This document shows positions 20,018 through 52,461 of a DNA stretch of 64,000 nucleotides, one piece after another (within the stretch, counting starts at the first letter, position 1; each line of letters opens with the position of its first letter). The DNA lies in the NCBI RefSeq assembly GCF_002214805.1, contig NZ_CP019914.1, positions 2,480,001 through 2,544,000 of the forward strand. Direction: 5' to 3'. This stretch comes from Brachyspira hampsonii (GTDB lineage Bacteria > Spirochaetota > Brachyspiria > Brachyspirales > Brachyspiraceae). The notes under the pieces are model-generated. The model made no database searches. It saw nothing but the letters and a program-made list of their open reading frames with translations, and was not told where the DNA came from. Position numbers and translations under genes: made by a program.

Positions 20018-22789
20018 ATGGACTATAGTTCTACTATCAATCTGCCTAAAACCGCTTTTCCTATGAAAGCAGGTTTGAAGGAAAAAGAGCCCAAAATAAT
20101 AAAAAAATGGGACGAAGAAAAACTTTACCAACAGCTTAGAGAATTAAGAAAAGGTGCTCCTAAATGTATTTTACATGATGGACCGCCTTATGCGAATGGC
20201 GACATTCATATTGGAACATCATTGAATAAAATTATTAAAGATATTATTGTAAGGTATAAATCTGCTAAAGGTTTTGATTCGCCTTATGTTCCTGGCTGGG
20301 ACTGTCATGGTATGCCTATAGAATTAAAGGTGCAGGAAAGTTTGGGAGATAAATATAAAGAAACTTCTAAATTTATAATGAGAAAAAAATGCCGTGCTTA
20401 TGCTCAGAAATATATTGATATTCAAAGAAAAGAGTTTAAAAGACTTGGCGTTATGGGTGATTGGGAAAATCCTTACCTCACTATGTCGCCTGAATATGAA
20501 TCTGAAATAGTTGAAGTATTTGCTAAACTTGTAGAGAAAGGATATATATATAAAGGACTTAGAACCATTCACTGGTGTATGGACTGTGAAACTGCATTGG
20601 CTGCTGCTGAAATAGAATATGACGATAATCATACTTCTACAAGTGTTTATGTGAGATTTCCAGTATTAAATAAAATCAATGATAAATTAGACGGCAATGT
20701 TGATGTTATGATATGGACTACTACTCCTTGGACACTTCCTTCAAATATGGCTTGTGCTTTCAATAGAGATTTAGATTATGTGGCTGTTGAAATAGACGGA
20801 AGATATGCAATAATGACTAAAAGCCTAGTTGATACTGTTCTTGGCAAAAAAGACATGAAAGCAGAAGGCAGAGATATGATTCCAGTATCTATAGAAGAGA
20901 TTGAAAAACTTGAAATAGCACATCCTTTTATAAAGGATAGAAAGTCTGCTGTTGTATTTGCTGACTATGTTGAGGCTACTGCTGGTACTGGTGTTGTTCA
21001 CACTGCTCCAGGTCATGGTATGGAAGACTATCAGACAGGAGTTAATTATGGACTTGATATATATTGTCCTGTAGATAAAGCTGGCAGATATACAAGCGAG
21101 TTTCCAGAAATGCAGGGCATGAAAGTAAGAGACGCTAACCCTAAAGTAATTGAAATACTTGAAAATAACGGCTCATTATTCTATAAAGAGAAAGTTACAC
21201 ATAGTTATCCTATTTGCTGGAGATGTAAAAATCCTTTGATATTCAGAGCTACTTCTCAGTGGTTTATGGATATGAAACATGACAATATAGACGAAAGAAC
21301 TGTTAAATCTTTAGACAATATTAAATGGTATCCTACTTGGGGACATGACAGAATGAGAAAGATGCTTGAAAATCGTCCGGATTGGTGTTTATCAAGACAG
21401 CGTTCTTGGGGTGTTCCTATACCTGCATTCTACTGTAAAAACTGTGGAAAAACTTTACTTACTGCAGAGTCTACTAAACATTTTGCTGAAATAGTAAAAA
21501 CTAAAGGAATGGATGTATGGTTTGAATTAGAGCCTAAAGACTTACTTCCTGAAGGCACTAAATGCGAATGCGGTTCTTCTGATTTTGGTAAAGAAGAGGA
21601 TATTTTGGATGTTTGGTTTGATTCTGGAGTATCATCTTTTGCGGCACAGAAAACTAATAAAGATTTGGACGGAGTTTTCCCTGTTGATATATATTTGGAG
21701 GGAGGCGATCAATACAGAGGTTGGTTCCAAGCTGCAATTTGGCCTTCTATGGCTATAAGAGGAATTCCGCCATACAAAGAGCTTGTTACACATGGCTGGA
21801 CTTTAGATGAACAAGGCAGAGCTATGCATAAAAGTGCTGGTAATGTTGTTTCACCTTTAGAAGTTATTGACAAATACGGTGCTGATATATTAAGGCTTTG
21901 GTGTATAAGTGAAGACTTCACTCACAATGCACGTGTTGGTGATAACATGATGAAAGCTATTGCCGATAACTACAGAAAAATAAGAAACACTTTCAGATAT
22001 TTGCTTGGAAATATTTCTGATTTTGATTTGTCTAAAGATAAAGTAGAAGTTAAAGATTTGCTTCCTGTAGACAGATATGCATTATCAAGACTTCATAGCT
22101 TTATAAAAGTTGCTGATAAAGCCTGTGAGGGTTATGAGTTTCATTTATTCTATCAAAGACTTATCAATTACTGTGTAGTTGAACTTTCTGCTACTTACTT
22201 TGACATTATAAAAGACAGATTATACTGTGACAGAAAAGATTCTATTTCAAGAAGAAGTGCTCAGACTGTACTTACTGAAATATTAGATGTATTAGTAAAA
22301 CTTATAGCTCCAGTACTTCCTTTCACAACTGATGAGGTTTGGGGATACTACAAAGGAGAAAATGCTTCTTCTGTACATTTGGAATTATATCCTAAAGCTG
22401 ATGATAGTTTGATTGATTTAGAATTAGAACAAGAATGGGCTTCACTTCTTAAAGTACGAGATGATGTATTATTATCGCTTGAAAGAGCTAGAGATAACAA
22501 CACTATAGGTAAATCTTTAGAGGCTTATATAACAATATGCACCAAAGAATCATCTTCAAAAGACTTGCTTACAAAATACCAAAAATATTTAAACGAAGTA
22601 TTCATTGTAAGTAAAGTAACAATTTCTGACAGTAAGGACGATACATTTATAGATGGCGGCGTTTCATTTGTTAAGACAGAGAAAGCAAGCCATGAAAAAT
22701 GTGTTCGCTGCTGGGGACATTATGAGAGTGTAGGCGAAGACAGCGAGCATAAAGAGTTATGTGCTAGATGTGCTGAAGCGGTTAAATAA
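20018..22789 (+). CDS. ileS: Isoleucyl-tRNA synthetase
   Basis: A 923-residue class I aminoacyl-tRNA synthetase that charges tRNA-Ile in the cytoplasm. The HIGH-type motif is in HDGPPYANGDIHIG (about 53-66), the editing domain contains WTTTPWTLPSNMA and GTGVVHTAPGHG, the KMSKS-type loop reads GRAMHKSAGN (about 599-608), and the C-terminal zinc site is CVRCWGHYES with LCARC. Length and domain order are those of bacterial IleS. Ribosome site GGAG about 12 bases upstream. Transcribed alone, closed by a terminator at 22814. Confidence 0.98.
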   Translation: MDYSSTINLPKTAFPMKAGLKEKEPKIIKKWDEEKLYQQLRELRKGAPKCILHDGPPYANGDIHIGTSLNKIIKDIIVRYKSAKGFDSPYVPGWDCHGMPIELKVQESLGDKYKETSKFIMRKKCRAYAQKYIDIQRKEFKRLGVMGDWENPYLTMSPEYESEIVEVFAKLVEKGYIYKGLRTIHWCMDCETALAAAEIEYDDNHTSTSVYVRFPVLNKINDKLDGNVDVMIWTTTPWTLPSNMACAFNRDLDYVAVEIDGRYAIMTKSLVDTVLGKKDMKAEGRDMIPVSIEEIEKLEIAHPFIKDRKSAVVFADYVEATAGTGVVHTAPGHGMEDYQTGVNYGLDIYCPVDKAGRYTSEFPEMQGMKVRDANPKVIEILENNGSLFYKEKVTHSYPICWRCKNPLIFRATSQWFMDMKHDNIDERTVKSLDNIKWYPTWGHDRMRKMLENRPDWCLSRQRSWGVPIPAFYCKNCGKTLLTAESTKHFAEIVKTKGMDVWFELEPKDLLPEGTKCECGSSDFGKEEDILDVWFDSGVSSFAAQKTNKDLDGVFPVDIYLEGGDQYRGWFQAAIWPSMAIRGIPPYKELVTHGWTLDEQGRAMHKSAGNVVSPLEVIDKYGADILRLWCISEDFTHNARVGDNMMKAIADNYRKIRNTFRYLLGNISDFDLSKDKVEVKDLLPVDRYALSRLHSFIKVADKACEGYEFHLFYQRLINYCVVELSATYFDIIKDRLYCDRKDSISRRSAQTVLTEILDVLVKLIAPVLPFTTDEVWGYYKGENASSVHLELYPKADDSLIDLELEQEWASLLKVRDDVLLSLERARDNNTIGKSLEAYITICTKESSSKDLLTKYQKYLNEVFIVSKVTISDSKDDTFIDGGVSFVKTEKASHEKCVRCWGHYESVGEDSEHKELCARCAEAVK

Positions 22790-28309: not shown

Positions 28310-29165
28310 TTGATGTTGTGTAATCAGCCGCACGTACAGGGGGCGTTTGGTAAGGGAAAGCGATACCGTGCGGGAAGCCCGTATGGCGAATACTGCGGGA
28401 AGCCCCCGACCGTAGGGAGTGCGTAGCTAGGCGAGTAGTTGGGAAAGTCCGATTTTTTTCTAAAAAAGTTATTGTTTGCAGGCTTATTTTGTTAAAAATG
28501 TTTGTTTAATAATAAGGGCGGGTTTGGGTGGGATATATGGAAAATTTAAAAAAAATTATTTTTGGGTTGGTTTTTGTGTTTGGTTTATTTTTTTAGTTAT
28601 TTTCTTTTTTGATGTTGGGTAATCAGCTGCATACCTTCGCCACAGTGGACTTCGTCAGGTACTTCCTTCGGTCGCGTACAGAGGTCTGTCTGTAAGGGTG
28701 AGCGTTGCCGTGCGGGAATGCCCCCGACCGCAGTGAGTGCGTAGCTAGGCGAGTGGTGGGAGAGGTTGGCTAGGTGTGGAAAGTCAACTTTTTTTCTTTG
28801 TCTTAAAAAAAAATTCTCGTTTTCTGGCTTATTTTGTTAAAAATGTTTGTTTAATAATAAGGGCCGGTTAGGGTGGGTTATAATGTAAATTTAAAAAAAA
28901 ATTCTTTTATGGTAATGGTTGGATATTTAGCCGCATGTATAGTTGACTGTCTGTAATTGTAAGCGATACCGTGCGGAATGCCCCTACGGCGAGTAGTCAG
29001 CCGCATACCCTCGCCACAGGCGGACTTCGTCAGGTACTTCCTTTGGTCGCGTACATTTTACTATCCGTAATGGTTTGCGTTACCGTGCGGAATGCCCACA
29101 CGAAGGGTACCCGAAATGAAGTAAGGGTATAGGCTAATACTGCGTAGCTAGGCGAGTAGTTGCAA
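28310..29165 (+). repeat. Family A mosaic hairpin repeats, tandem cluster (four cores)
   Basis: The non-coding gap 28257-29221 is almost entirely repeat. Cores begin with AATCAGCCGCAC at 28322, 28621, about 28925 and 28998; the first three recur at 299 and 304 bases, so the unit including its AT-rich tail is about 300 bp. Each core has an outer stem (for example CCGCACG 28328-28334 with CGTGCGG 28367-28373) followed by one or more small hairpin modules: GTAT-GGCGA-ATAC, CTAC-GGCGA-GTAG, and the longer GACCGTAGGGAGTGCG plus TAGCTAGGCGAGTAGT. The region is visibly richer in G+C than its surroundings and ends about 55 bases before the phase-variable gene. Confidence 0.85.
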
Positions 29166-29221
29166 AATGTGCGGTTTGGGTGTATTGTATGTAAAAATAT
29201 AATTTGGGGGGATTTTATTTT

Positions 29222-32200
29222 ATGGATAAGCACAGCACAGCACAGCACAGCACAGCACAGCACAGCACAGCACAGCACAGCACAGCACAGCACAGCACTT
29301 TAAACTATTCTGGTAATTATGTCAACTCTGATTTTAAAAATCAGTCATACGAAAAAATACTTTCTCTAATTAAAAAATTTAAATCTAATTATTCTCAATA
29401 CACTAATAAAAATTATAATGAAACGGAGACTAGAAGGGATTTTTTGGATCCGTTTTTTGAGGCGTTCGGTTGGGATGTGGCTAACAGGGCGGGTAAGTCT
29501 CAGACTTATAGAGATGTTATTCATGAGGATAAGCTCAAAGTGGGTAAAGAGACAAAGGCTCCTGATTATGCTTTTCGTATTGGCGGAAATAGGGTTTTCT
29601 TTGTGGAGGCGAAAAAGCCCGGGGTTAATCTTAAAGAGGACAGTTTGCCTGCTTTTCAGCTTAGGAGGTATGGTTGGAGTGCCAAGCTGGGGATTAGTTT
29701 TCTTACTGATTTTGAGGAGCTTGCTATTTATGACTGCACTAGAAAGCCTAGCATAAATGATAAGGCTTCTACTGCTAGGATTGAGTATATTCATTTTGAG
29801 GATTATTTAAAAAGGTTTGATTTTCTTTATGAGATACTTAATAAAGAGAGTATTGAGCAGGGTTCGCTTGAGAAATATATTGCGGGGAGTTCAAACAAAA
29901 AAGGTACTGAAAGCGTTGATATTGATTTTTTAAGCACGCTTGATAATTTGCGTACTAAACTTGCTTCTAATATATCTAAATTAAACAAAGATTTGTCTGT
30001 AAGGGATTTGAATTATGCGGTTCAGCAGATTATTGACAGGATTATATTTTTGAGGGCGGCTGAGGACAGAGGCATTGAAGAGTATGGGGATTTGAAAAGG
30101 ACATGCGAGAGTAAGAATGACAATTTTTATAATAATCTTTTGGGGATTTTTAAAAGGGCTGACGGTAAATATAATTCGGGGCTTTTTGATTTTGCCAAAG
30201 ACAGTATAAGCGGTAATATAGAGATTGACAATAAGGTGATAAAGGAGATTATTAATGAGCTTTATTATCCTTTGAGTCCTTATGAGTTTTCTGTGATATC
30301 GGTTGAGATAATGGGGAATGCTTATGAGCAGTTTTTGGGTAAGACTATCACTATAGGGAGGAATCATAGTGCGAAGATAGAATTAAAACCAGAGGTGCGT
30401 AAGGCTGGAGGGGTATATTATACGCCTGAGTATATAGTTGATTATATAGTGGAGAACACGGTTGGTGAGGCTATAAGGGGTAAGAAGCCAGAAGAGATTG
30501 CGAATATAAAAATATTGGATCCTGCCTGCGGCAGCGGAAGTTTTTTGCTTGGGGCGTATAAATATTTACTTAATTATCATATTGAATATTATAATAAGAT
30601 AAAGGACAGGGCGAAGTTTAAGGGGTCGAAAGAAGATGTGATAAAAGAGAATGGGGATTTGACAATTTGGATAAAGAAGCAGATATTACGCAACAATATA
30701 TTTGGGGTGGACATAGACAGCAATGCGGTAGAGGTAACGAAATTATCGCTTCTTATGAAGTGTTTGGAGGGGGAGAGTCCTGCGTCAATACAGAACAATC
30801 AGGATTTATTTAATGAGCGAGCTTTACCGTCATTGGAGGATAATATAAAATCTGGAAATTCTTTAATAAACAGTAATTTTAATAGTGAGGGAGAGCGTTT
30901 ATTTTCATCTGATGAAGATACGCAATATAAAATAAAATGCTTTAGTTGGGATAAAGAATTTTCAAGTGTAATTAAAAAAGGAGGATTTGATATAATTATT
31001 GGAAATCCGCCTTATGTAAAAGAGTATACAGACAGAGAAAGTTTTGAGAATGTAAAAAAAGGAAATTTATCTAAATATTATCAAGGTAAAATGGATTTAT
31101 GGTATTTCTTTGTTTGTTTTGGTTTGGATATTTTAAAAGAAAATGGAAAACTAGGATTTATCGCTCCTAATAATTGGATTACAAATGCAGGGGCGTCTAT
31201 ATTAAGAAATAAAGTTTTAACAGATTCAAAAATTTTAAAATATGTAGACTTTGGAGATTTTAGAGTTTTTCTTGAAGCTGGTATTCAAACAATGGTATTT
31301 ATATTAAATAAAGAAAAAATTAATAAAGATTATGAAATTGATTATTGTAAAATTTTAAATAAAAATATAGATGTTATAGATATAGAAAAATTTTTATTTG
31401 AAAATGAACCGTCAAACGATATAAGTCATATAAAAACCATAATATCAAAAGATAAAATGTTAAATAATTTAATAACATTTATTGATAGTAGTAAAGATAA
31501 AGTATTATCAAAAATAAAAGAAATGGGAAATTATTTTTTAACATCAGAAAATACAGCTCAGGGTATAGTATATCCACAAGATTATTTGAATGAAAAAAAC
31601 AGGTCTATATTAGGTGGAGATTTTAAGGTTGGAGATGGAATTTTTGTTATAAGTGATGAAGAAAAAAATGCATTAAATTTATCTAAAGAAGAATTAGAAT
31701 TAATAAAACCTGTATATACTACAGAACAAATAAAAAGATATTATGCAGACAGTAATAATAAAGAATGGGTAATATATACAGATTCGACTTTTAAAGATAT
31801 AAATAAAATAAAAAAATATCCTAATATAAAAAAACATCTTGATAAATTTAAAAGTGTTATTACTTCAGACAATGCACCTTATGGTTTGCATAGAGCTAGA
31901 AAAGAGAATTTTTTTGTAGGTGAAAAAATAATATCTGTTAGAAAATGTGTTGATAAACCTATTTTTAGTTATGTTGATTTTGATTCTTATGTTTCTGCTA
32001 CATTTTATGTTATAAAGCCAGAGGATATTGATTTGAAATATTTAACGGGTATTTTGAATTCAAAGTTAATAGCTTTTTGGTTAAGGAACAAGGGAAAAAT
32101 GCAAGGGTCTAATTATCAAATTGACAAAGAGCCTCTCTTAAATATTCCAATTTGCAATACTGACAATGAAAGTTTAAAAAACAAGTTAATTAATCATGTT

Positions 32201-32365
32201 AACGAGATGATAGAATGTAATCAAAGGCTTATAAATGAAAAAAATCCTGACAGTATCAATCGCATTAAAAATGATATTGCAGATATTGATTCCTTTATTG
32301 ATAAAACTGTTTATTCTATTTATAATATATCAGAGGAAGAAAGAAAGATTATTGAGGGCGAATAA
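29222..32365 (+). CDS. Phase-variable type IIG restriction-modification enzyme, Eco57I-like (gene 2)
   Basis: A 1047-residue single-chain enzyme. The ATG at 29222 has GGGGGGA as ribosome site; an in-frame TTG 18 bases upstream is less likely. Residues 4-26 are HSTAQ repeats encoded by (CACAG)n. The nuclease domain has APDYAFR and VFFVEAKKPG (PD-x-ExK). The methylase shows motif I DPACGSGSFLLGA, IFGVDIDSNAVEVTKLSL, and IIGNPPYVKEY with NPPY at 31004-31015. The TRD then leads to NISEEERKIIEGE. The 5' part up to about 30850 is G+C-richer than the TRD. With 13 repeat units the frame is open. It lies 69 bases upstream of the Gabija-like pair. Confidence 0.9.
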   Translation: MDKHSTAQHSTAQHSTAQHSTAQHSTLNYSGNYVNSDFKNQSYEKILSLIKKFKSNYSQYTNKNYNETETRRDFLDPFFEAFGWDVANRAGKSQTYRDVIHEDKLKVGKETKAPDYAFRIGGNRVFFVEAKKPGVNLKEDSLPAFQLRRYGWSAKLGISFLTDFEELAIYDCTRKPSINDKASTARIEYIHFEDYLKRFDFLYEILNKESIEQGSLEKYIAGSSNKKGTESVDIDFLSTLDNLRTKLASNISKLNKDLSVRDLNYAVQQIIDRIIFLRAAEDRGIEEYGDLKRTCESKNDNFYNNLLGIFKRADGKYNSGLFDFAKDSISGNIEIDNKVIKEIINELYYPLSPYEFSVISVEIMGNAYEQFLGKTITIGRNHSAKIELKPEVRKAGGVYYTPEYIVDYIVENTVGEAIRGKKPEEIANIKILDPACGSGSFLLGAYKYLLNYHIEYYNKIKDRAKFKGSKEDVIKENGDLTIWIKKQILRNNIFGVDIDSNAVEVTKLSLLMKCLEGESPASIQNNQDLFNERALPSLEDNIKSGNSLINSNFNSEGERLFSSDEDTQYKIKCFSWDKEFSSVIKKGGFDIIIGNPPYVKEYTDRESFENVKKGNLSKYYQGKMDLWYFFVCFGLDILKENGKLGFIAPNNWITNAGASILRNKVLTDSKILKYVDFGDFRVFLEAGIQTMVFILNKEKINKDYEIDYCKILNKNIDVIDIEKFLFENEPSNDISHIKTIISKDKMLNNLITFIDSSKDKVLSKIKEMGNYFLTSENTAQGIVYPQDYLNEKNRSILGGDFKVGDGIFVISDEEKNALNLSKEELELIKPVYTTEQIKRYYADSNNKEWVIYTDSTFKDINKIKKYPNIKKHLDKFKSVITSDNAPYGLHRARKENFFVGEKIISVRKCVDKPIFSYVDFDSYVSATFYVIKPEDIDLKYLTGILNSKLIAFWLRNKGKMQGSNYQIDKEPLLNIPICNTDNESLKNKLINHVNEMIECNQRLINEKNPDSINRIKNDIADIDSFIDKTVYSIYNISEEERKIIEGE
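29229..29298 (+). repeat. (CACAG)13 pentanucleotide tract, frameshift switch
   Basis: Thirteen perfect CACAG units (29231-29295) plus partial units at both ends, starting seven bases after the ATG of gene 2. The tract has no stop in any frame, but the two other frames stop right after it, at TAA 29301-29303 and TAA 29314-29316. Gain or loss of one or two units would therefore switch off the protein; three units would keep it on. Confidence 0.92.
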
Positions 32366-32434: not shown

Positions 32435-34162
32435 ATGCATATTAAAACAGTGAAAATTCAAAATTTTAAATGTTTTGAGGATTTTGAATTAAATTTAAAT
32501 GAAGATATAAATATAATAGTAGGTAATAATGAAGCTGGAAAATCAACTTTGTTAGAGGCTATATATTTGGCTTTAACAGGTGTTTTAGATGGAAAATATT
32601 TAAAAAATGAAATCAATCCATATATATTTAATAAGAAAGCTGTAAAAAACTATTATTCTAATAAAAGTTCTAATTATAAGGAGTTACCAGAAATTATTAT
32701 AGAATTATATTTTGAAGTTGGAAAAGATGAAGATAATGAATTTAAAGAAATGCGTGGAAACAATAATATGAAATCAGTTGATGAATGTGGTATACAGTTT
32801 AAAATATTATTTAATGAAGACTATCAGGAAGAATATAAAGAGTTTTGTGATTCATATAGTTGCAATAACAATGAATTAGAGGTATTACCTATAGAATTTT
32901 ATAAAATAGAAACTAAATCTTTTGCTAGAGATCATTTAACTCGTAAAAAAATTCCAATTAAATCCGTTTTAATAGATTCATCTATTAATAAATCAAAGAA
33001 TGGCTCTGATATTTATTTATCATATATAATAGAAAAATCTATAAGTAATGAAGAAAAAATACAAATTCTTAATGCCCATAGAGAAATGAAATATACATTT
33101 TCTAATGATAAAAATATAAAAAATATAAATGATAGAATATTTCAAGATAAATATAATATTTCTGAGAAAGAATTAAAATTGTCAGTAGATTTATTACATA
33201 ATGATTGGCAAAATACACTTCTTACATATATTGATGATATACCATTTCAATATATAGGTAAAGGAGAACAATGTTATATAAAAACTAATTTAGCATTATT
33301 AGATAATAAAGCACAAGATGCTAGCTTAATTTTATTAGAAGAACCAGAGAGTCATTTATCACATTCTAAATTAAATAGTTTATTAGACAAGATTAAATAT
33401 AATATAAGTAATGTGTCTAATAAAAATAAACAGATTATTATAACTACACATAGTAGTTTTGTAGCAAATAAAATGTTATTAAAAAATATAATAATGATAA
33501 ATTATGAAAACAGTATTCATTTCACTGATTTAAAAGAAAAGACATTTAATTTTTTTGAAAAAGTTTCTGGATATGATACATTGAGATTAGTATTGTCAAA
33601 GAAAACAGTGTTAGTAGAAGGTGCTAGTGATGAATTAATTTTTCAAAGAGCATATAAAGATAAATATGGAAAACTACCTATAGAAGATGAGATAGATGTA
33701 ATATCTGTTGGAACATCTTTTTTAAGATATTTAGAATTAGCAGAAAAATTAAATAATAAAGTTATAGTAGTTACTGATAATGATGGAAATGTACAACAAT
33801 TAGAGAATAAATATAAAGAATATAAAAATAATAATAATATAAAAATATGTTACGAAAAAAAAGAAAATACTTTTGATGATTTAGATATAAAAATATCTGA
33901 TAATAAAAATAATAAAAATAATAAAAATAATATTAATAATAAAAATAATATTAATAATATTAATACACTAGAACCAAATTTATTAAAATATAACAATATA
34001 GATTTATTTAATAAAATTTTTAAAACAAATTGTAAAAATAATATTTCATTATTAAATTATATGTTAAATAATAAAGTAGAATGTGCTTTAAGAATATTTG
34101 AATACCACGATGCAATAGAATATCCAGAGTATATAAAAGAGGCTGTAAATGAGTGTGAATAA
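32435..34162 (+). CDS. Gabija-like GajA: ATPase fused to TOPRIM nuclease (OLD family, class 2)
   Basis: A 575-residue protein with the GajA domain order and length. An ABC-type ATPase comes first: Walker A GNNEAGKST (30-38), signature-like GKGEQ, Walker B LILLEEPESHLSH (about 298-310), and IIITTHSSFVANK. The TOPRIM domain follows: VLVEGASDELIFQRAY with the catalytic Glu (about 393), and VVTDNDGN with the metal-binding DxD (about 447). GajA proteins nick DNA when nucleotide levels fall during phage infection. A low-complexity N/K/I stretch coded by AAT/AAA repeats (33900-33960) interrupts the TOPRIM region, an unusual insertion. Overlaps the next gene by 14 bases. Confidence 0.82.
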   Translation: MHIKTVKIQNFKCFEDFELNLNEDINIIVGNNEAGKSTLLEAIYLALTGVLDGKYLKNEINPYIFNKKAVKNYYSNKSSNYKELPEIIIELYFEVGKDEDNEFKEMRGNNNMKSVDECGIQFKILFNEDYQEEYKEFCDSYSCNNNELEVLPIEFYKIETKSFARDHLTRKKIPIKSVLIDSSINKSKNGSDIYLSYIIEKSISNEEKIQILNAHREMKYTFSNDKNIKNINDRIFQDKYNISEKELKLSVDLLHNDWQNTLLTYIDDIPFQYIGKGEQCYIKTNLALLDNKAQDASLILLEEPESHLSHSKLNSLLDKIKYNISNVSNKNKQIIITTHSSFVANKMLLKNIIMINYENSIHFTDLKEKTFNFFEKVSGYDTLRLVLSKKTVLVEGASDELIFQRAYKDKYGKLPIEDEIDVISVGTSFLRYLELAEKLNNKVIVVTDNDGNVQQLENKYKEYKNNNNIKICYEKKENTFDDLDIKISDNKNNKNNKNNINNKNNINNINTLEPNLLKYNNIDLFNKIFKTNCKNNISLLNYMLNNKVECALRIFEYHDAIEYPEYIKEAVNECE

Positions 34163-35273
34163 GTTATTTCTTGCTGCAGCAGGTTGTGGAAAGACTACTT
34201 ATATAATAAATGAAGCATTAAAATTAAAAAATCATAATATATTAATTACAACATATACAGATAATAACGAAAGAAGTATAAAAAAAAAGATTCTTGAAAT
34301 AAATGGTACTATACCTAAAAATATAAAAGTTCAAACTTGGTTTTCATTTTTAATTAAGCATGGTGTTAAGCCTTATATTACATGTTTAACTAAAAATATT
34401 AATGATGTTAAAGGACTAATATTTGATCAACATAAACATAATAGTAAAATTGATAGAAGTAAATCAGAATATTATTTTTCTAAAACTAATAAAATATATT
34501 CTGAAAGTCTAGCGGAATTTGTTTTTAACTGCAATTATATTTCTGATAATAAAGTTATTAATAGATTAGAAAATATTTTTGATATTATTTTTATAGATGA
34601 AGTTCAAGATATATCAGGATATGATTTGGAAATTATAAGATTATTATTTAATAGTTCTATAAATGTATATTTAGTTGGTGATTTAAGGCAACGAATATAT
34701 CAAACCAACAATGCTCTAAAAAATTCTACTAAAAAAAATAATTCTAATAAAAATTATAGTATAAATATATATGAATATATTATAAAAAATAAAGGATTAT
34801 TGAATTGTGATATAGATAATACCACATTTAATATATCTTACAGAAATAATAGAGAAATATGTGATTTTGCTTCTAAACTATATAAAGAATTTGGAAAAGT
34901 ATCTTCTCATTCTCAATATTCAGATAGTCATGAAGGAATTTATTTTATTAATGAAAAAGAAGTTAACAAATATTTAGAAATGTATCCAAACAACATTGTA
35001 CAACTAAGATATAGTAAAAAATCTGCCAATAGTTTAGTTAATACAAAATATCCTATAATGAATTTTGGAGCTGTTAAAGGATTAGAATATGATAGGGTTA
35101 TAATTTTTCTTACATCTGGGTTGATGGATATTTTAAAAGATAATGATATTGTAGAATATTCGGATAATAAATCAAAATTATATGTTGCTATTACTAGAGC
35201 TAGACATAGTGTTGTTTTTGTTACAGATGAAGATTTAACAGAATATGGTATAAAGAAATTTAATTTTGTTTGA
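34149..35273 (+). CDS. Gabija-like GajB: UvrD/Rep-type superfamily 1 helicase
   Basis: A 374-residue SF1 helicase core, shorter than typical GajB (nearer 500). Motif I AAAGCGKTTYI (9-19), Ia region LITTYTDNNE, motif II IIFIDEVQDISGYD (about 146-159), motif III YLVGDLRQRIYQ, a YRNNREIC motif, motif V GAVKGLEYDRVII, motif VI LYVAITRARHSVVFV. All catalytic motifs are present, so the short length reflects missing accessory domains, not truncation. Start codon lies inside gajA, so the two are coupled. Its stop TGA is the first TGA of the family A repeat that follows (TTTGATGTTGGGT), meaning the repeat abuts the gene precisely. Confidence 0.82.
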   Translation: MSVNKLFLAAAGCGKTTYIINEALKLKNHNILITTYTDNNERSIKKKILEINGTIPKNIKVQTWFSFLIKHGVKPYITCLTKNINDVKGLIFDQHKHNSKIDRSKSEYYFSKTNKIYSESLAEFVFNCNYISDNKVINRLENIFDIIFIDEVQDISGYDLEIIRLLFNSSINVYLVGDLRQRIYQTNNALKNSTKKNNSNKNYSINIYEYIIKNKGLLNCDIDNTTFNISYRNNREICDFASKLYKEFGKVSSHSQYSDSHEGIYFINEKEVNKYLEMYPNNIVQLRYSKKSANSLVNTKYPIMNFGAVKGLEYDRVIIFLTSGLMDILKDNDIVEYSDNKSKLYVAITRARHSVVFVTDEDLTEYGIKKFNFV

Positions 35274-35353
35274 TGTTGGGTAATCAGCCGCACGTACATT
35301 GTACTATCCGTAAGGGGTTGCGTTGCCGTGCGGGAAGGTGCTACAGCTCGTAG
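35270..35353 (+). repeat. Family A repeat, single core, at the left end of methylase relic 1
   Basis: Begins TTTGATGTTGGGTAATC at the GajB stop, has the stem CCGCACG...CCGTGCGG and ends with the module GGTGCTACAGCTCGTAG (35337-35353: CTAC-AGCTC-GTAG hairpin). The methylase relic starts at the next base. Confidence 0.85.
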
Positions 35354-36638
35354 TTATGTTCAAATTCAAGGTATGGAAAAGGAACTTAAAGAAGGCTACA
35401 AAGAAGCTAATTATAAAAATTATGTTTTAACAGGCGATATTTATCAATTATTTTTTGAAAAAAGTTTAGATGTACTCAAGGTTGGCGGTGTTGTGGGAAT
35501 GATAACTTCTAATAAGTGGATGCAGGCTAATTATGGAGCTATTACAAGAAATTATTTTTATAAAAATGCAAATGTTAATGGCGTTATAGATTTGGGGGCA
35601 GGAAGATTTCAAGGAGCTACGGTAGATACTAGTATAATAATATATTCAAAAAATGACGGTGAAATAAAAATTAATGAACCTAGAGAGTTTAAGGCTTTAA
35701 AATTTTATGATGATTTGTCAGAACTTGAAAATATACAATTTGGAGATGACAAAGTTATTGCCAATCATGATAAAGAATGGCTTATAATGAATAATCTTGA
35801 GAATAGTATTTTTGAAAAAATAAATAAACATAAGCCTTTAAAAGATTGGGACATTCATATTTACAGAGGTGTTTTAACAGGATTTAATGAAGCATTTGTT
35901 ATTGATGAAGAAACTAAAGATAATCTTATAAAAGAAGATGCTAAAAGTGCAGAGTTAATTAAACCTGTATTAAGAGGAAGAGATATAAAAAGATATTATT
36001 CATGTTATACTTCATATTTAATTAATACTCATAATGGTATAAAAGAAAAAAATATACCGCCTATTAATATAAAAGATTATCCAGCTATAAAAAAACATTT
36101 GGATAAATATTATAAGCAATTAGAAAAAAGATTAGATAAAGGTATAACTCCTTATAATTTAAGAAATTGTGCTTATTTATCTAGTTTTACAAATATTAAT
36201 ATAGTTTGGCAACGTATAACTGATAGAAATAAATTTGTAGTTTCAAATGAAGGTGAATATATACTTGATAGTATGGCTTTTATTAATGGATTAAATTCAA
36301 GAGAAAAAGCATATTATATATTGGGGGTTTTGAATAGTAATTTAGTATATTTTTGGATTAAACATAATGTTCATGAATATGGTCATACAGGTTTTAGACT
36401 TTCAAATCAATATGTTGAGATAATACCTATTCCAGAGCCTGACAAGGATACTGAAAATAAATTAGTTAATCTCGTCGACAGTATCATTGACTTAAACAAA
36501 AAATTAGCCTCTGAGAAAAACCCTAACACTATTGAAATGATTAATACGCGTATTCAGGCGGTTGACAAGGCTATTGATAAGATTGTGTATGCTTTGTATG
36601 GGCTTAATGATGAGGAAATAAAGATTATTGAGGGGTAG
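35354..36638 (+). pseudogene. 5'-truncated type IIG methylase (relic 1: TRD half only)
   Basis: An open frame (readable from a GTG at 35328 within the repeat) encoding the C-terminal 420 or so residues of an Eco57I-type enzyme. It begins in the middle of the catalytic motif: the first codons read YVQIQGMEKELKEG where family members read NPPYVRIQG. It then runs through LKVGGVVGMITSNKWMQANYG and the whole TRD to GLNDEEIKIIEG. The nuclease, SAM site and NPP are absent, so it cannot methylate or cut. The frame is otherwise intact, so it could serve as a donor for recombination. Alternatively it is simple debris of a replaced gene. Confidence 0.85.
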
Positions 36639-36948: not shown

Positions 36949-37479
36949 ATGAAAGAATTTGCTATTGTTTTAGCACCTGTTATACTTAATACATTTACTA
37001 CTGCTATATTTACTTTTATTATAACTAGAAAAATAGATAAAAGTAGTAAGCAAAGCAAAATAATTTTTGAAGAATTAGAAAATATAGCTGTGGAATTAAA
37101 TACAATTTTATTGGATATAATGTCTGATAAACATGAAAAAATAGCGGATAATATAAAAAGACTTAATATGCAAATGAATAAAATATATTTATTTGGTAGT
37201 ATTGAAGCAATTAGGATTGTAAGTTATATAAGAAAATTAGAAAATCAACAATATATAATTTCTTTAGTTGCTTTATTGATTTCACAAATTAGATATGATT
37301 TAACTAGTAAAATAATAAATCCTATATATTGGTCTGAAATTAATTTGACAGATTTTAGTAAATATAGAGATGAGCATAATGAATATTTAAAAAAAGTTAT
37401 TAAACATCTAAAACTTAATAAGAAATTTTTAAAAGAAAATACCAACTATGGTGAGGTATTAAATAAAAATGAAAAATAA
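36949..37479 (+). CDS. Small membrane-anchored protein, first gene of an unassigned two-gene module
   Basis: A 176-residue protein with one N-terminal membrane segment (about 3-24: IVLAPVILNTFTTAIFTFII), then a cytoplasmic helical domain (IFEELENIAVELNTILLDIM and later helices). Ribosome site AAGGAA before the ATG. It overlaps the next gene by 11 bases. I do not recognise the family. Its place in the defence island, next to a second membrane protein and flanked by methylase relic and family A repeats, makes an anti-phage or abortive-infection role a reasonable guess without direct evidence. Confidence 0.7.
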   Translation: MKEFAIVLAPVILNTFTTAIFTFIITRKIDKSSKQSKIIFEELENIAVELNTILLDIMSDKHEKIADNIKRLNMQMNKIYLFGSIEAIRIVSYIRKLENQQYIISLVALLISQIRYDLTSKIINPIYWSEINLTDFSKYRDEHNEYLKKVIKHLKLNKKFLKENTNYGEVLNKNEK

Positions 37480-38644
37480 TATAATGTATTTTATTATTTT
37501 ATTAGTTATATCTTGTTTAATATCTATTTTTGTTTCACATATTTTTATATCTAATAGAGAAAAAATTGAACCAATTTCAATAAGTATAAATATTTCTGAT
37601 ACTAATGCAAATCTTATTGAAGAAAGTTTTATTACAAAAACTATAGAAGAAAATATCAATAAATTATATGATAGAAGTATATCAAGTTTAAATACATCAA
37701 TAGTTTTATTTTCTACTTGTTTAGGTATATTTACTGTTTTATTTGGTGTTTTTTATATATCAAAAATTAATGAAATACAAAAAGAGATTAATAATATTAA
37801 AAGTTTACCAGAAGAAGTATTTAAAAAATTTTATAAACAAAAATTTAAAGACGATATAAACAATTTGTTATCTGATGATGTAATAAATAGAAATATAGCA
37901 ATTAAAGGATTAAGCAATAATACAGAAATAACAAAAGATGATTTTAATTTATTAGAAAAATTTCTTTATGTAGAAATTAATTCTAAAAATAATGTGTTTT
38001 ATTATACAAATATTTGGATTATTTTATCAATCTTAGTAGGTTTAGATTTAAATAGAACATTAAAATTAATAATCAAAATTCTAGAAAATACTAATGAACC
38101 ATTTAATAAAATTTCAAATTTTATTCAATTTTTATTTATAGATCCAGATAACATAATTTTAGATAAATATATAAATAAAATTTTTATATCAAATGATAAT
38201 ACTATTTTAGTAAATTATATATTATCATATTGTTATTTATATACACAAATTTCAAAATATTTTGATGTTATTATAGCGAATTCTAATGAGAATACAATAG
38301 TATCATTATTATCACAAATAAATTTATCTATTACAAAAAATGATGCAGAATTATTTTTGAATCTATTATTAAAGAATAGAAAAAATATAGAAAATGAAAG
38401 TAGTATTTTGAGTTCTATATTATCAAATGAAAATATAGATAATATTCAAAAAGCGGAATTAGTATTAATGGTATATTATAAAAATAATGAAAATGAAAAC
38501 TTTTTATATAACTATCTTATTAAGATTATAACTAATACTAGTTACATAAATGAGTTTAAAAATATATATGATTCTAAATATAGAAATAAATTATCTTTGG
38601 AAAGTTTTTTCCAAAAATATTCTAGTTTAAAAATAAAAATGTGA
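37469..38644 (+). CDS. Membrane protein with large helical domain, second gene of the module
   Basis: A 391-residue protein with two membrane segments: about 6-28 (FIILLVISCLISIFVSHIFI) and 74-96 (IVLFSTCLGIFTVLFGVFYI). A 45-residue loop between them contains repeated SI/NI strands. The C-terminal 280 residues are helical and Asn/Leu/Ile-rich, possibly HEAT-like (KGLSNNTEITKDDFNLLEKF). No catalytic motif is visible. Translational overlap with the preceding gene indicates a complex. The family A repeat starts about 18 bases after the stop, again hugging the gene end. Confidence 0.7.
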   Translation: MKNNIMYFIILLVISCLISIFVSHIFISNREKIEPISISINISDTNANLIEESFITKTIEENINKLYDRSISSLNTSIVLFSTCLGIFTVLFGVFYISKINEIQKEINNIKSLPEEVFKKFYKQKFKDDINNLLSDDVINRNIAIKGLSNNTEITKDDFNLLEKFLYVEINSKNNVFYYTNIWIILSILVGLDLNRTLKLIIKILENTNEPFNKISNFIQFLFIDPDNIILDKYINKIFISNDNTILVNYILSYCYLYTQISKYFDVIIANSNENTIVSLLSQINLSITKNDAELFLNLLLKNRKNIENESSILSSILSNENIDNIQKAELVLMVYYKNNENENFLYNYLIKIITNTSYINEFKNIYDSKYRNKLSLESFFQKYSSLKIKM

Positions 38645-38662: not shown

Positions 38663-39770
38663 TTTGATGTTTGGTAATCAGCCGCACGTACAGGTGGCGT
38701 TTGGTAAGGGTGAGCGTTGCCGTGCGGGGGTGGTGCTACAGCTCGTAGGCGGGAATACCCCCGACCGTAGGGAGTGCGTAGCTAGGCGAGTAGCTGGAGT
38801 GTTTCAAATGGCTAGCTTGTATGGGTTGGGAAAGTCCGATTTTTTTCGTTTTTTCTAAAAAAGTTACTGTTTGCAGGCTTGTTTTGTTAAAAATGTTTGT
38901 TTAATAATAAGGGTGGGTTAGGGTGGGTTAAATGGTAAATTTTAAAAAATTATTTATGGGTTAGTTTTAGTTTGGGGTTGGCTTTTTAGTTAGGTTATTT
39001 TTTGTTTGATGTTGGGTAATCAGCCGCACGTACATTTTACTGTCCTTAATATTAAGATATACGGTGTGGGAAGCCCCTACGGCGAGTAGTAGGTAATCAG
39101 CCGTATATTTAAGTAGGTCATTATTTCAGAGTAAAAGGCTTTAGCCTGCGTTCAATATTTAATAAAAATTCGCGTTAGCGTTTTTGGTATGCTACCAGAA
39201 TGTTTGGGTTATCCTACAGTATGTAAATGCTTTTTGCTTCTTTTGTGCCACAAAAGAAATAGTTTTTTGGTACTTTTTTCATAGGAAAAAAGTACAATCT
39301 TTTTCGTATTTTTTCTAAAAAAGTTAGTTTTTTAGGCTTATTTTCTTAAAAATGTTTGTTTAACTATATAGGGTGGGCGGGCGGGTGCAATAGATTGTAA
39401 AGAAAAGTTTACATATTATTTCTGGGTTAGTTTTTGAGTTTGGGTTGGCTTTTTAGTTATTTTCTTTTTTTTGATGTTGGGTAATCAGCCGCACCTACAT
39501 TTTACTGTCCTTAATATTAAGATATACGGTGCGGGAAGCCCCTACGGCGAGTAGTCAGCCGCATACCTAAAGGTACTTCCTTCGGTCGCGTACATTGTAC
39601 TATCCGTAATGGTAAGCGATACCGTGCGGAATGCCCGTATGGCGAATACTCAGCCGCACGTACATTGCACTATCTGTAAGGGTAAGCGATACCGTGCGGA
39701 ATGCCCATATGGCGAATACTGCGGGAAGCCCCCGACCGTAGGGAGTGCGTAGCTAGGCGAGTAGTTGATT
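38663..39770 (+). repeat. Family A mosaic hairpin repeats, second large cluster
   Basis: The gap 38645-39798 has no credible gene. Cores (CAGCCGCAC-type starts) lie near 38678, 39022, 39485, 39555 and 39650. They carry different module sets: the 17-base GGTGCTACAGCTCGTAG at 38732-38748, CTAC-GGCGA-GTAG near 39077 and 39540, GTAT-GGCGA-ATAC near 39635, ATAT-GGCGA-ATAC near 39706, and TAGCTAGGCGAGTAG near 38783 and 39748. Between cores are the shared AT-rich tails (TTGTTAAAAATGTTTGTTTA at 38885 and about 39345). At 39215-39300 a repeat also seen inverted at 36655 is inserted. Confidence 0.82.
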
Positions 39771-40347: not shown

Positions 40348-41763
40348 GGGAGGATGAGTTTAAAAGCGTTTTTAAAGCGGGCGGTTTCGATGTGGTGATA
40401 GGCAACCCGCCGTATGTAAGAATGCAAACACTTTCAGATACTAATAAAGAAACTGTTAATTATTATAATAATATTTATACAGATTATGTAAAAGGAAATT
40501 ATGATTTATATATTATTTTCTTTTATAAAGCTTTTTCTATGTAAATTAGGATATATTTTACCCCATAAGTTTTTTCAATCAGAAAGTGGAGAAAAAATAA
40601 GAAAATATTTATATAATAATAATGCCATTGATACTATAGTAAATTTTACTACAAATCAAGTTTTTAGCAATGCTACAACATATACTTGTTTACTCTTTTT
40701 ATCTAAGAAAGAAAAAAATAATATTTTATATAAACAATTTAGTTTAAATGATGATTATACAAATTTATCTAATATAGAGTATGATAAATTTGATTACTCT
40801 ATTTTCAATAATAATTCTTGGAATTTTAATAATTTAGATGTTCAATGTATTTTAAATAAGATTTATAATCAAGAATTATTGTTTTCAGAAATAACATATA
40901 AAATATTTAAAGGTTCTTCTACAGGTAATGATAATATTTATTTGTTTGATATTTTAGAAGAAAATCAAAATACTTATATAGTTAAATCTAATATTTCAGA
41001 AGAAAAAGAAGAATTAGAAAAAGATTTATTAGTTCCTTTTCTTTATGGGGAATCTATAAGAAGATATCAGGATTTAAAAGCAGCTAAATATTTATTATTA
41101 CCATATGTAAAAAATAAAGATGATGATAATATGTCATTAATAGATATTAAAGAATTAAAAATAAAATATCCGTTAACATATAGATATCTAAATAAATATA
41201 AATCAGTTTTGTTAACTAGAAAAATCAAAATGAATGATAATGATTATTATAAATATTCGGCTTTAAGAAGTATTAACTATTATGAAAGAAAAAAGATTAT
41301 GATACCAGATATGTTGGTAAGTTTAAGAATTAGTTATGATTTTGAAGGTTGTTTTTATCATGGTCCAAGTATACATAGCATAATATTTAATGAAAAAATT
41401 AATAATATTAACGAAATGTATTTTTACACTATTTTAAATTCAAAGATATTTTGGTTTTTTGTATCAAATACTAGTACCGCTTTGAGGGGTAATGCCTATA
41501 GATTAACTCCTGAATTTATATCTCCTTTTAAGTTTCCTAATTTGGATTTAAACAACAAACAGGACAAGGAAATGCATGACAAGATGGTTGCTTTAGTTGA
41601 TAGTATCATTGCTTTAAACAAAAAATTAGCTTCCGAGAAAAATCCTAACGCCATTACTATGCTTAACAGGCAGATTAATGCCGTTGTCAAGCAGATTGAT
41701 TCTTTAGTCTACAAGTTGTATAATTTGAGCGATGATGAAGTGAGGATCATTGAGGGGGAGTGA
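40348..41763 (+). pseudogene. 5'-truncated, frameshifted type IIG methylase (relic 2)
   Basis: Methylase sequence begins at GEDEFKSVFKAGGFDVVIGN, followed by PPYVRMQTL (NPPY at 40404-40415), so motif I and the nuclease are missing. The first frame ends at TAA after YIIFFYKAFSM (near 40543). The homology continues in another frame at KLGYILPHKFFQSESGEKI, so a short deletion with frameshift lies near 40540. The second frame runs open to LSDDEVRIIEGE and ends exactly one base before the KAP NTPase start. Composition is G+C-richer up to NPPY, AT-rich in the TRD, then richer again in the last 200 bases. Inactive as an enzyme. Confidence 0.85.
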
Positions 41764-43677
41764 ATGGAAAATATAGATAAATATTTTAAAAATATAAAAA
41801 ATACAATAAAAAATTATTTAGCTGAAAAAAATACAGATTATGGGATAATGCTTACAGGTGAATGGGGGTGTGGAAAAACTTATTTTGTAAAAAATCTATT
41901 AAAATTATATAAATATAAAAAACTTTATATTTCTATATCTGGAAAGGAAAATATATTGGAAATAGTAGATGATATATATTTATCAAGTTTAATAAAAAAA
42001 TTTAATTCTAATGATATAAGTCTTAATACTACAAAAACTATATTAAACAATGTTAGTGGTATATTGGTTGATACAATACCGATAGGAAAAGATATAGGAA
42101 AAAATATATTAAATATTCTTAAAGAAATAAATAAGAATATAGATAAATTAAAAAATGTATTTTTAATCATAGATGATGTTGAAAGAATATCAAAAAAAAT
42201 AAATATAGAAGATTTATTATATTCTATTTATGATAATTTTATATCGAATAATGTAAAAGTGTTATTTATTTGTAATGAAGAAGTATTAATTAATAATGAA
42301 GAGTATAATAAAATAAAAGAAAAAATCATAAGACATACTATAAAATTACATAGTATAGATAAAAATAATTTTAAATTATTTTTAGAAACATATATAATAA
42401 AAAATTTAATATATGATAAAGACATAGAAAATTATTATATTAGTAATCATTTTTTTTATGAGCAATGCATACCTAATATTATTAATATATTTATGGAAAT
42501 GGAATGTTATAATATAAGGACTTTTAAAAAATTCTTTGATATGTCAAAATATTTCTTAAATGAAATAAATAGATTTATAGAGAAAGAAGAATATAAATTA
42601 AACAATAATGAAGAATTATTTTTAGAAATATTAAAAAATTTTTCTTTTGTATTAATATCATATGATAAGAATATTAATACAAATATTTTATCAAATTTTG
42701 ATTTAGTAAATAGTGAAGAATTTTCTCAAAAAACAAATGAGGATAAGTCCAAAATTACAGAAAATTTTACAGATATATATTCAAAAATAAGAGAATTAAA
42801 TTTAACATATAATAATTCTATATTTTATTTTTACAGATATTTAAAATGTGGTTTATTAGATTTTGAGCAAATACATTTAATTTATAAAGATAAAATATAT
42901 TTGAATAAAAATGTCTTGAAAGCTTATAATATAGTTAGTCAAGGTTATGAAAGTTATGACATAATAAAAGAAAATATAAATATAATATTTAAAGAAATGA
43001 AAAATGATAAATATAATTTTAGTATAAAATCTTGTTGGAATATATATAAAATTGTTTATATTAGTTACGCTAATCTTTTTGATGATATAAAAAAAGATAG
43101 TTTTAATATTTTGAAAGATACTTTAAAGTATCATTGGAGTATTACAAATATTAAAACTATTTACTATTCAAAAATTGGATATGAGAATAATAATTTCTTT
43201 TTTTATCCAGCTTTTGAAGTAAAAATTAATATAAAAGAATGTGATAGTAATTACAATTTAGAAGAATATGAAAAAGAATTGTTAGATTACTTATACACTG
43301 AAAAAATAAAAGAAATACCAAATGAATTTAATGAAGTATTAGAAAATTTTAAATGCCATAATAAAGATTATTTTGTATCAGATTTTTATTTGAATTCTAA
43401 AATATTATATTTATTATTTATTCCACAAAATTTACAACTTATTCCTATAGATGTATTTTCAGTGAGAATATTATTGGAGTTTTTATATTCAGATATTACG
43501 ATAAGAAATTCTTTTGAGCAATATAAAATTTATGACTATAATGCCCGTAAAGTAAGGGATATGATAAATAATTTGAAACCATTTATAGATAATATAGAAA
43601 CAAAAGATGAATATTTATTAATTAGAATATGTGAATTAAAAGAAAGAATAGAATTCTATAATAATACAGATTATTAG
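41764..43677 (+). CDS. KAP-type P-loop NTPase
   Basis: A 637-residue protein. Walker A is GEWGCGKT (32-39) and Walker B is VFLIIDDVER (about 132-141), as in KAP-family STAND-like P-loop NTPases, several of which work in phage defence. There is no clear membrane segment, unlike classic KAP proteins with inserted helices. The C-terminal 350 residues are Asn/Tyr/Lys-rich, helical and unassigned, and may be a sensor or effector. Its ATG directly follows the TGA of methylase relic 2, and the ribosome site (GAGGGGGAG) lies inside that relic's last codons. So it was once coupled to an active methylase and is now perhaps driven by read-through or an internal promoter. Confidence 0.8.
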   Translation: MENIDKYFKNIKNTIKNYLAEKNTDYGIMLTGEWGCGKTYFVKNLLKLYKYKKLYISISGKENILEIVDDIYLSSLIKKFNSNDISLNTTKTILNNVSGILVDTIPIGKDIGKNILNILKEINKNIDKLKNVFLIIDDVERISKKINIEDLLYSIYDNFISNNVKVLFICNEEVLINNEEYNKIKEKIIRHTIKLHSIDKNNFKLFLETYIIKNLIYDKDIENYYISNHFFYEQCIPNIINIFMEMECYNIRTFKKFFDMSKYFLNEINRFIEKEEYKLNNNEELFLEILKNFSFVLISYDKNINTNILSNFDLVNSEEFSQKTNEDKSKITENFTDIYSKIRELNLTYNNSIFYFYRYLKCGLLDFEQIHLIYKDKIYLNKNVLKAYNIVSQGYESYDIIKENINIIFKEMKNDKYNFSIKSCWNIYKIVYISYANLFDDIKKDSFNILKDTLKYHWSITNIKTIYYSKIGYENNNFFFYPAFEVKINIKECDSNYNLEEYEKELLDYLYTEKIKEIPNEFNEVLENFKCHNKDYFVSDFYLNSKILYLLFIPQNLQLIPIDVFSVRILLEFLYSDITIRNSFEQYKIYDYNARKVRDMINNLKPFIDNIETKDEYLLIRICELKERIEFYNNTDY

Positions 43678-44801: not shown

Positions 44802-45419
44802 TTAAATAATACTCTCTTTTATGTTAGGAAGTAAATTGTAAATAGAAGTTCCTATTGTGCTTTCAAAATATGATTTTATTTCAAATACCTTCTTCCATCT
44901 TAAAGCACTTTGATGAAATGTACCATATCTTAAAGCTACATCTATAAACCTTTTTTCTAAAATACAAAAACCTGTAGGTAAGGCAAGACTATCGCATAGC
45001 TGAATAAGTAAATCATAATCATCATATACAGCATTACTGATGAACTCTTTCATAAAGTTGTAATCATCTTCAGGCATATCGAATTTTCCTATTGCTGTGT
45101 TTATGTCCTTTATCATGAAGGCATGACTTATGCATATTTGAGCCAATTTATCCCAGCCGTATTTAATGCAGTATTTGTAACCATCTATTAAATGCCTCTC
45201 CGCACTTATTCCTGTGTACCTTCCTATGTCATGAAGAAGCCCGAATATGTATGCATTATCTTCATCTAGTTTTTTGTTTGAAGAGTTTTTATTGTAGTGT
45301 GAGGCTATTATTCTTGCAGCTTTAGCAGTGTACCTTGAGTGTTCAGCCCAAGGAGTAGGGTTTGATTTGTATGCTTTGTTTAATTCGCATTCTGCTCTTT
45401 CTAAATCTAATATTTCCAT
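44802..45419 (-). CDS. HD-domain phosphohydrolase-like protein
   Basis: A 205-residue protein with a metal-dependent HD domain: WAEHSRYTAKAARIIASHYN (first His), FGLLHDIGRYTGI (HD pair, about 78-90), AERHLIDGYKY, then ISHAF. The N-terminal WAEHSR is typical of small HD proteins annotated as HDIG or phosphohydrolases acting on nucleotides or related phosphates. The substrate is not known. Ribosome site is weak (AGGAAAT). It marks return to ordinary chromosome beyond the island. Confidence 0.82.
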   Translation of the reverse strand: MEILDLERAECELNKAYKSNPTPWAEHSRYTAKAARIIASHYNKNSSNKKLDEDNAYIFGLLHDIGRYTGISAERHLIDGYKYCIKYGWDKLAQICISHAFMIKDINTAIGKFDMPEDDYNFMKEFISNAVYDDYDLLIQLCDSLALPTGFCILEKRFIDVALRYGTFHQSALRWKKVFEIKSYFESTIGTSIYNLLPNIKESII

Positions 45420-45540
45420 AATTATTTCCTATTTGTTTATATTAATTATAATAATATAAATTTTTTAAAAAATAAATATTATAGGGAACTTTTATCATAT
45501 TTTTTCGTCTAATAAAATAAATAAAAACTAGGGTATCACT

Positions 45541-45804: not shown

Positions 45805-46045
45805 TTTGTTATTTTGCTGTATATTTATAGCAGTTTATTTTGTAAGAGTGTATATATGACTATTTTATTAGTCTGATACTTATATATTAAGAAATATTTG
45901 TTTTGTTATGCAATTATATCAATGATATCGAATTAAAATATTATTAGTTTAAAAGTTATAAAATTTATAATAAAAACTATTGAATATTTTTTAGAATTTA
46001 ATATCATATTTCCGTAGTATTTTTATGATATAAATTTGTAAAAAA

Positions 46046-52281: not shown

Positions 52282-52461
<180 letters not shown>

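Follow-up and report, generated by a model that had tools for sequence, protein, structure and literature searches.

Does a perfect pentanucleotide array directly behind the start codon of a type IIG restriction-modification gene in the gut spirochaete Brachyspira hampsonii turn the enzyme ON and OFF, and what else at the locus varies with it? Phase-variable restriction genes are already known, and an initial annotation of this DNA had proposed such a switch here. The window analyzed is a stretch of 64,000 nucleotides (contig NZ_CP019914.1, positions 2,480,001 to 2,544,000), and it was compared across a set of 26 Brachyspira genomes, one per species. The window genome, a single contig of 3.19 Mb, is designated G000 and the other genomes are numbered in the same way. 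As far as sequence comparison allows, the locus very probably combines an ON/OFF switch with a modular exchange of the specificity half and of defence cargo in a hotspot.

The type IIG gene and its repeat tract

The following features of the 5' part of the gene and its leader are referred to below.

29159..29189, + strand: leader block GTTGCAAAATGTGCGGTTTGGGTGTATTGTA, conserved before 5-mer and 7-mer tracts
29198..29211, + strand: TATAAT (29198-29203) and GGGGGG (29206-29211), read from the sequence and conserved in orthologues
29222..32365, + strand: type IIG restriction-modification gene, 1047 aa in the ON frame (Pfam, PADLOC, predicted structure)
29229..29298, + strand: phase-variation tract, (AGCAC)14.0, equal to 13 CACAG units plus CAC (sequence, Tandem Repeats Finder, in-silico changes, shuffles)
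29301..29316, + strand: stops of the two OFF frames (sequence, in-silico changes)
29561..29614, + strand: PD-(D/E)xK nuclease motif, P114-D115 ... E129-A-K131 (conservation in homologues)
30518..30544, + strand: methylase motif I, DPACGSGSF, residues 433-441 (conservation in homologues)

A single ORF carries the Pfam HSDR_N nuclease, the N6_Mtase/Eco57I methylase and the TaqI_C recognition region, and its residues 42-1043 match the PADLOC REase_MTase_IIG model (E 1e-183). The initial annotation had placed the nuclease and the methylase of a type IIG enzyme in one chain, and the Pfam domains and the PADLOC match bear this out. The single chain and its catalytic motifs, PD-ExK, DPACGSG and NPPY, are those by which a predicted enzyme is assigned to the type IIG class. 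Residues D115, E129, D433, G437, G439 and N595-Y598 (NPPY) do not vary among the 19-20 homologues compared, which come from spirochaetes, Bacteroidota and other groups, and K131 is conserved in at least 90% of them. The predicted structure of the 1047-residue enzyme has a mean pLDDT of 82.5, and Foldseek matched it to CamA, M.BseCI, PglX/BrxX, BpuSI, MmeI and DrdV. Residues 1-34, which contain the repeat-encoded peptide, are predicted to be disordered and the ordered enzyme starts at residue 36; a variable-length N-terminus should therefore be tolerated.

The tract comprises 70 bases, which Tandem Repeats Finder and reading of the sequence describe as 14.0 copies of AGCAC with a 100% match and no indels. 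Equivalently, 13 CACAG units (29231-29295) are followed by CAC, through 29298. The start codon occupies 29222-29224, behind the GGGGGG stretch; the array sets in within codon 3 (AAG), and codon 4 marks the start of the first complete CACAG. A 15-base run of three CACAG units occurs within the window at this tract only, with 11 overlapping matches, and 0.00 were expected from 100 dinucleotide-preserving shuffles of the window. All three frames of the array encode one identical pentapeptide (HSTAQ repeats), and the two off frames end at TAA 29301-29303 (+1) and TAA 29314-29316 (+2). When the unit number was changed in silico, 14 ± 3n units gave proteins of 1047 ± 5n residues: lengths of 8, 11, 14, 17 and 20 units yielded a full protein, and all others tried yielded peptides of 18-39 residues. 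The earlier claims of 13 perfect CACAG units just after the ATG, of non-coding frames that stop at 29301 and 29314, and of a full protein abolished by any unit change not divisible by three all stand, the last of them in silico. A perfect repeat in coding sequence, with a unit length not divisible by three, is the arrangement that characterizes contingency genes.

Upstream of the gene, TATAAT is likely a -10 box and GGGGGG a ribosome-binding stretch, to judge from their sequence; a consensus promoter scan found no site on the + strand in this region. The leader block, with up to 3 mismatches, was found in 10 of the 26 genomes, one copy each, before the type IIG gene or its vestige. Alternative starts are also present, as an in-frame TTG at about codon 82 of the window gene and, in G012, an in-frame TTG upstream that overlaps the G-run; a non-ATG start codon could blunt the switch.

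Tract variation among Brachyspira orthologues

The leader and the pentamer are common to four orthologues, with 14 units in G000, 10 in G017, 8 in G023 and 7 in G012. Read from the ATG, these give 1047 residues (ON), 23 residues (OFF), 955 residues (ON) and 18 residues (OFF), respectively, so that both ON and OFF alleles occur in this between-species comparison and the OFF frames stop early. The unit counts in related genomes, which the initial annotation had put forward as a check, are indeed variable between species and differ by whole-unit steps. The G000 and G017 flanks match fully over the 70 bases that precede the tract and show 4 differences in the 150 positions that follow; the tract has therefore changed far faster than its flanks. 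Between G000 and G023, there are 6 differences in 220 flanking bases. Over the 150 bp downstream, the two comparisons give 3-4 changes.

In two further orthologues, a heptamer occupies the same site, (AGTCAAC)5.9 in G011 (ON) and (AGTCAAC)8.0 in G005 (OFF), and both carry the same leader block. The peptides encoded by the 5-mer and the 7-mer are quite different, which suggests that the slippery property, and not the peptide, is conserved. Taken together, the ON and OFF lengths, the near-identical flanks and the replacement by a 7-mer make an ON/OFF phase-variation switch, as originally proposed, a well-supported reading of these sequences. The tract-bearing orthologues number six, and lengths in draft assemblies could be wrong; the gene tree is too poorly resolved around the tract-bearing rows for counting tract gains or losses.

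Several orthologues have no tract, so the switch is not essential. In G004, a short dead-end ORF still contains 6.9 heptamers, and another start follows downstream of it; only the leader and a vestige survive in G018, G009 and G022; other Brachyspira orthologues are tract-free and begin at a plain ATG (MLSKEEAYKK, MYSKEEVYKK and similar). In all of these, the switch is evidently decaying or bypassed, as judged from the sequences. Of 73 related loci in other genomes, some of them in other genera, those with a tract at the gene's 5' end were all from Brachyspira. The heptamer near a Psychrobacter homologue (L186) was considered as a parallel and rejected, since it lies upstream of the gene and not inside it. 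In G025 (L102 3205-3254, reverse-complement coordinates), a 10-unit AGCAC tract and a degenerate leader block lie upstream of the type IIG gene, and another gene, with a lipoprotein-like start, sits between the tract and the type IIG gene.

The tract and its variation could have other explanations. That the repeat serves to encode a useful flexible N-terminal peptide fits with the identical HSTAQ repeats in all array frames, by which any in-frame length gives a low-complexity tail. However, the 7-mer orthologues encode an unrelated NSQQSTV repeat, other orthologues lack any extension, out-of-frame alleles exist and the residues concerned are predicted to be disordered; we consider a peptide function very improbable and, on the strength of the 7-mer orthologues, reject it. 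Several of the relatives are draft or metagenome assemblies, and the differences in length might be assembly errors and the out-of-frame copies products of ordinary decay. Yet all tracts are perfect and differ by whole units, G000 and G017 are single-contig genomes, and the remainder of the OFF genes is open for about 950-1030 codons with no internal stops. This combination of error and decay is hardly credible as the source of the variation, and the ON/OFF switch is retained as the preferred reading.

Repeats of the same kind were seen elsewhere in the genus. Both (AGTCAAC)n and (AGCAC)n also follow the ATG of short leader ORFs before other Brachyspira genes, at G000:C1 27954-28147 (L109) and 1629784-1629846 (L110) and at loci L112, L113, L116, L118, L133-L135 and L103-L105. 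The genes behind these leaders encode an MFS transporter, a YidC-like protein of about 996 residues, an MBOAT acyltransferase, FkbM/TylF methyltransferases, a glycosyltransferase and a Serpulina_VSP surface protein. At the YidC-like loci, the leader terminates at or slightly beyond the ATG of the following gene in two frames and immediately behind the tract in the remaining one, a pattern that points to phase-variable translational coupling and not to a fusion. Elsewhere in the window (52282-52437), an ATG and 25 CAACAG units form a small poly-Gln ORF upstream of a gene at 52662; as a hexamer, this unit does not shift the frame, and spacing or the leader may be what it affects.

Exchange of the C-terminal half

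Two features define the 3' part of the gene.

30863..32362, + strand: exchangeable C-terminal half, codons 548-1047 (conserved N-half DNA ends at gene nt 1619-1659)
31004-31015, + strand: motif IV NPPY, within the exchangeable half along with the target-recognition region (conservation in homologues)

Block comparison showed that the N-terminal half of the protein is about 88-100% identical over residues 110-500 between most Brachyspira species and that identity is roughly 15-35% beyond residue 600. At the DNA level, the N-half is about 87-97% identical, and this similarity ends in most pairs at gene nt 1619-1659, near codon 549, with a few pairs extending to nt 1740-1800. The breakpoint falls between methylase motifs I and IV and near a low-confidence linker (residues 555-563, pLDDT < 50). 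The C-half of the window type was found among expressed genes in G000, G017, G012 and G016 only. On these comparisons, the type IIG gene is a mosaic in which the half that contains motif IV and the target-recognition region is exchanged between species. The mosaic gene and the modular defence island around it constitute a second layer that was absent from the initial annotation. In G016 (L130 4844-4891), a GC-rich element of the type described below lies inside the type IIG N-half and leaves a tract-free C-terminal ORF.

Defence genes, displaced halves and a hairpin element

The region downstream of the type IIG gene contains the following features.

32435..35273, + strand: Gabija genes GajA (32435-34162; PADLOC E 6e-190) and GajB (34149-35273; PADLOC E 1e-104)
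35286..35354, + strand: GC-rich two-hairpin element directly before displaced half 1 (pattern searches and pairing)
35355..36638, + strand: displaced C-half 1, without an N-half; 89.5% aa identity to the expressed half of G019 (over 35355-36635)
36949..37479, + strand: AbiN-like gene, 176 aa, after displaced half 1 (PADLOC AbiN E 2e-8)
37469..38644, + strand: 391-aa gene overlapping the AbiN-like gene; no Pfam match, weak BrxA match (E 0.005)
40350..41763, + strand: displaced C-half 2, frame broken near 40498-40541; 90-92% aa identity to the G011 expressed half (over 40350-41757)
41764..43677, + strand: KAP-family P-loop NTPase (PDC-S49), directly after the stop of displaced half 2 (Pfam/PADLOC-type scans)
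28326..28373, 28929-28976, 38680-38727, 39487-39534, 39557-39629 and 39652-39699, all + strand: further copies of the GC-rich element (pattern searches)

Gabija lies 70 bp behind the type IIG gene on the same strand, and no terminator-like site was found between them; a promoter-like site ahead of Gabija (32298-32326) would make separate transcription possible. Inside gajA, a 9/18-bp tandem repeat (window 33900-33965) has a unit that is a multiple of three, so its length can change without a change of frame. Upstream of the type IIG gene, PADLOC identified RmrT/RmrA homologues and a second type IIG gene. In other species, one of the genes behind the halves encodes what we take, by eye, to be a RES-domain protein. 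The island is flanked by ileS (20018-22789) on one side and by an HD-domain gene/acrB (44802-49171) on the other, and these flanks recur, at least partly, in several Brachyspira species with different cargo. Searches of plasmids gave no DNA match, those of phages gave distant relatives only (<60% identity), and the tract together with its flank was absent from IMG/VR.

The GC-rich element has CCGCAC...GTGCGG as its outer pairing, plus a small second hairpin, in which paired changes (G-C and C-G, T-A and C-G) are compensatory. It directly precedes displaced halves in the window and in G004, G009, G022, G017, G016 and G024, and a fixed-length pattern placed 33 of 33 copies in the islands on the strand of the type IIG gene. 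All four strict copies found by pattern search in the window genome lie within the island. An element unique to this locus was rejected genus-wide, as dispersed copies occur on both strands in G004, G005, G013, G014, G020 and others. Rfam gave no match in the window, and the element is therefore no listed RNA family. Candidate roles are those of a module boundary, a recombination site or an insertion element.

The islands, searched with all C-halves, contain copies that lack an N-half; these lie downstream in the same orientation. G004 has one displaced half that matches the expressed half of G009 at 98% identity over its first 233 residues and another that is 91% identical to that of G007. 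One displaced half of G022 is 85% identical to the expressed half of G025, and another is about 93-94% identical to the expressed half of G022 itself. G011, which provides the match to displaced half 2 of the window, is a species with the heptamer in the ON state. The compared halves fall into 13 families by core sequence, four of which contain both expressed and displaced members. The dN/dS values are 0.09-0.40 for displaced versus expressed copies and 0.11-0.38 for expressed pairs; this similar range indicates that most divergence of the displaced copies arose under selection for protein function. Halves with unrelated cores are, in most pairs, 93-100% identical over the first ~145 bases and 83-97% over the last ~110-200; in one such pair, identity at the end drops to 69%. 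With up to 3 mismatches allowed, a junction word of 24 bases occurs in 16 of the 26 genomes, at gene junctions and before displaced halves, with three copies each in G009, G004 and G022.

An expressed copy accompanied by partial copies with other recognition parts, as found here, is one mark of silent-cassette systems. The displaced halves might be a working archive of cassettes that recombine within the cell with the expression site and so change target and cargo on top of the ON/OFF switch. The exact match of displaced and expressed halves over 25-29 bp at the junction in G009 and G004, the closely similar pair within G022, the near-identical ends of halves with unrelated cores and the apparent selective constraint on displaced copies all speak for this. 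The window genome, however, contains no exact stretch of at least 18 bp common to the displaced halves and the expressed gene. Half 1 lacks the NPPY region, half 2 has its broken frame, no dedicated recombinase was recognized among the window ORFs scanned near the locus, and, with one genome per species, two arrangements in one strain were not encountered. A ready archive in the window was rejected, since the halves share no such sequence with the expressed gene and are truncated; they look like remnants. We regard a working archive as rather unlikely overall. Within-cell switching is possible where the junction homology appears intact, as in G004, G009 and G022, and it is not evident in the window genome, given the lack of an exact match and the damage to both halves.

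A model for the locus

The preferred reading, a switch with modular exchange, would operate as follows. Replication slippage, to which the variation points, would lengthen or shorten the stretch behind the ATG by 5-bp units; every third length would be in frame, and the others would end translation 18-39 codons in. Since nuclease and methylase share one chain and translation would end early, both activities would presumably be lost together. Over evolutionary time, the constant 5' part (leader, tract, nuclease and motif I) would have been joined to different 3' halves, each with motif IV and target recognition and, as a rule, followed by at least one defence gene. A new C-half would enter at the junction, probably by recombination with DNA of another strain, and presumably change the DNA target, and the old half would stay downstream as an orphan. 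Insertion at the junction would produce the order observed, namely N-half, new half, cargo, element and old half. A gene transfer agent, VSH-1, is present in Brachyspira (PMC6899734), and high recombination has been described in B. pilosicoli (PMC8116685), which makes donors of new halves plausible. More tentatively, the locus may be an expression site for defence modules, in which a phase-variable constant half takes up a specificity half together with a single defence gene or a pair of them (Gabija, KAP-NTPase, AbiN-like and others), and the hairpin element forms the module boundary. If this possibility, which we hold at low confidence, is true, one locus changes the ON/OFF state, the DNA target and the linked defence.

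Comparison with known systems

The predicted enzyme shares the nuclease-methylase-recognition fold of MmeI (5hr4; Foldseek E 8e-20) and BpuSI (3s1s; Foldseek E 3e-21). Its identity to these two enzymes is about 15%. We know of no phase-variation tract in either. Cj0031c of Campylobacter jejuni NCTC11168 is a phase-variable type IIG enzyme that in the ON state methylates and restricts phage (PMC4889913). Like the Brachyspira enzyme, it is a single chain with a simple repeat in its coding sequence and a strain-variable target-recognition region, but its repeat is a poly-G at position 2573 of 3732 bp, whereas the 5-mer or 7-mer of Brachyspira lies right behind the ATG; we found no mention in that report of displaced C-halves with defence genes (PMC4889913). 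The Neisseria genes modB and modD, with 2-28 and 2-15 pentanucleotide units, respectively, and allele units CCCAA/GCCAA/TCCAA, resemble the present locus in having a pentamer tract of allele-dependent sequence and a variable recognition domain. They encode type III methylases with a separate nuclease, however, and their unit length is fixed at 5, where it is 5 or 7 in Brachyspira (PMC4751487).

The pneumococcal tvr/SpnIV type I locus likewise has partial specificity genes beside the expressed copy and direct repeats. Unlike the Brachyspira locus, a type IIG system with no recombinase found and with switching proposed from sequence, it has a type I hsdS, a recombinase (TvrR) and demonstrated excision-reintegration (PMC6265443). 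In Helicobacter pylori, domain movement in type I and type IIG S genes similarly exchanges target recognition by recombination at flanking repeats, but it involves TRD1 and TRD2 of a separate S subunit, in contrast to the whole C-half of a single chain here (PMC3077401). In the open-licence literature, we found no paper that joins Brachyspira with phasevarions and no description of a type IIG gene with this layout. Provisionally, three things appear to be new: the Brachyspira setting, a repeat unit whose length differs at a single locus, and an ON/OFF tract coupled to the exchange of the whole specificity half beside defence genes.

The occurrence of a 5-mer and a 7-mer at one locus constitutes natural evidence for selection on instability and not on the peptide. 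The locus further bears on whether specificity halves travel with defence genes and raises the question of how a single-chain enzyme turns ON without harming its own unmethylated genome. For the organism, it bears on whether Brachyspira populations differ in methylome and in phage resistance.
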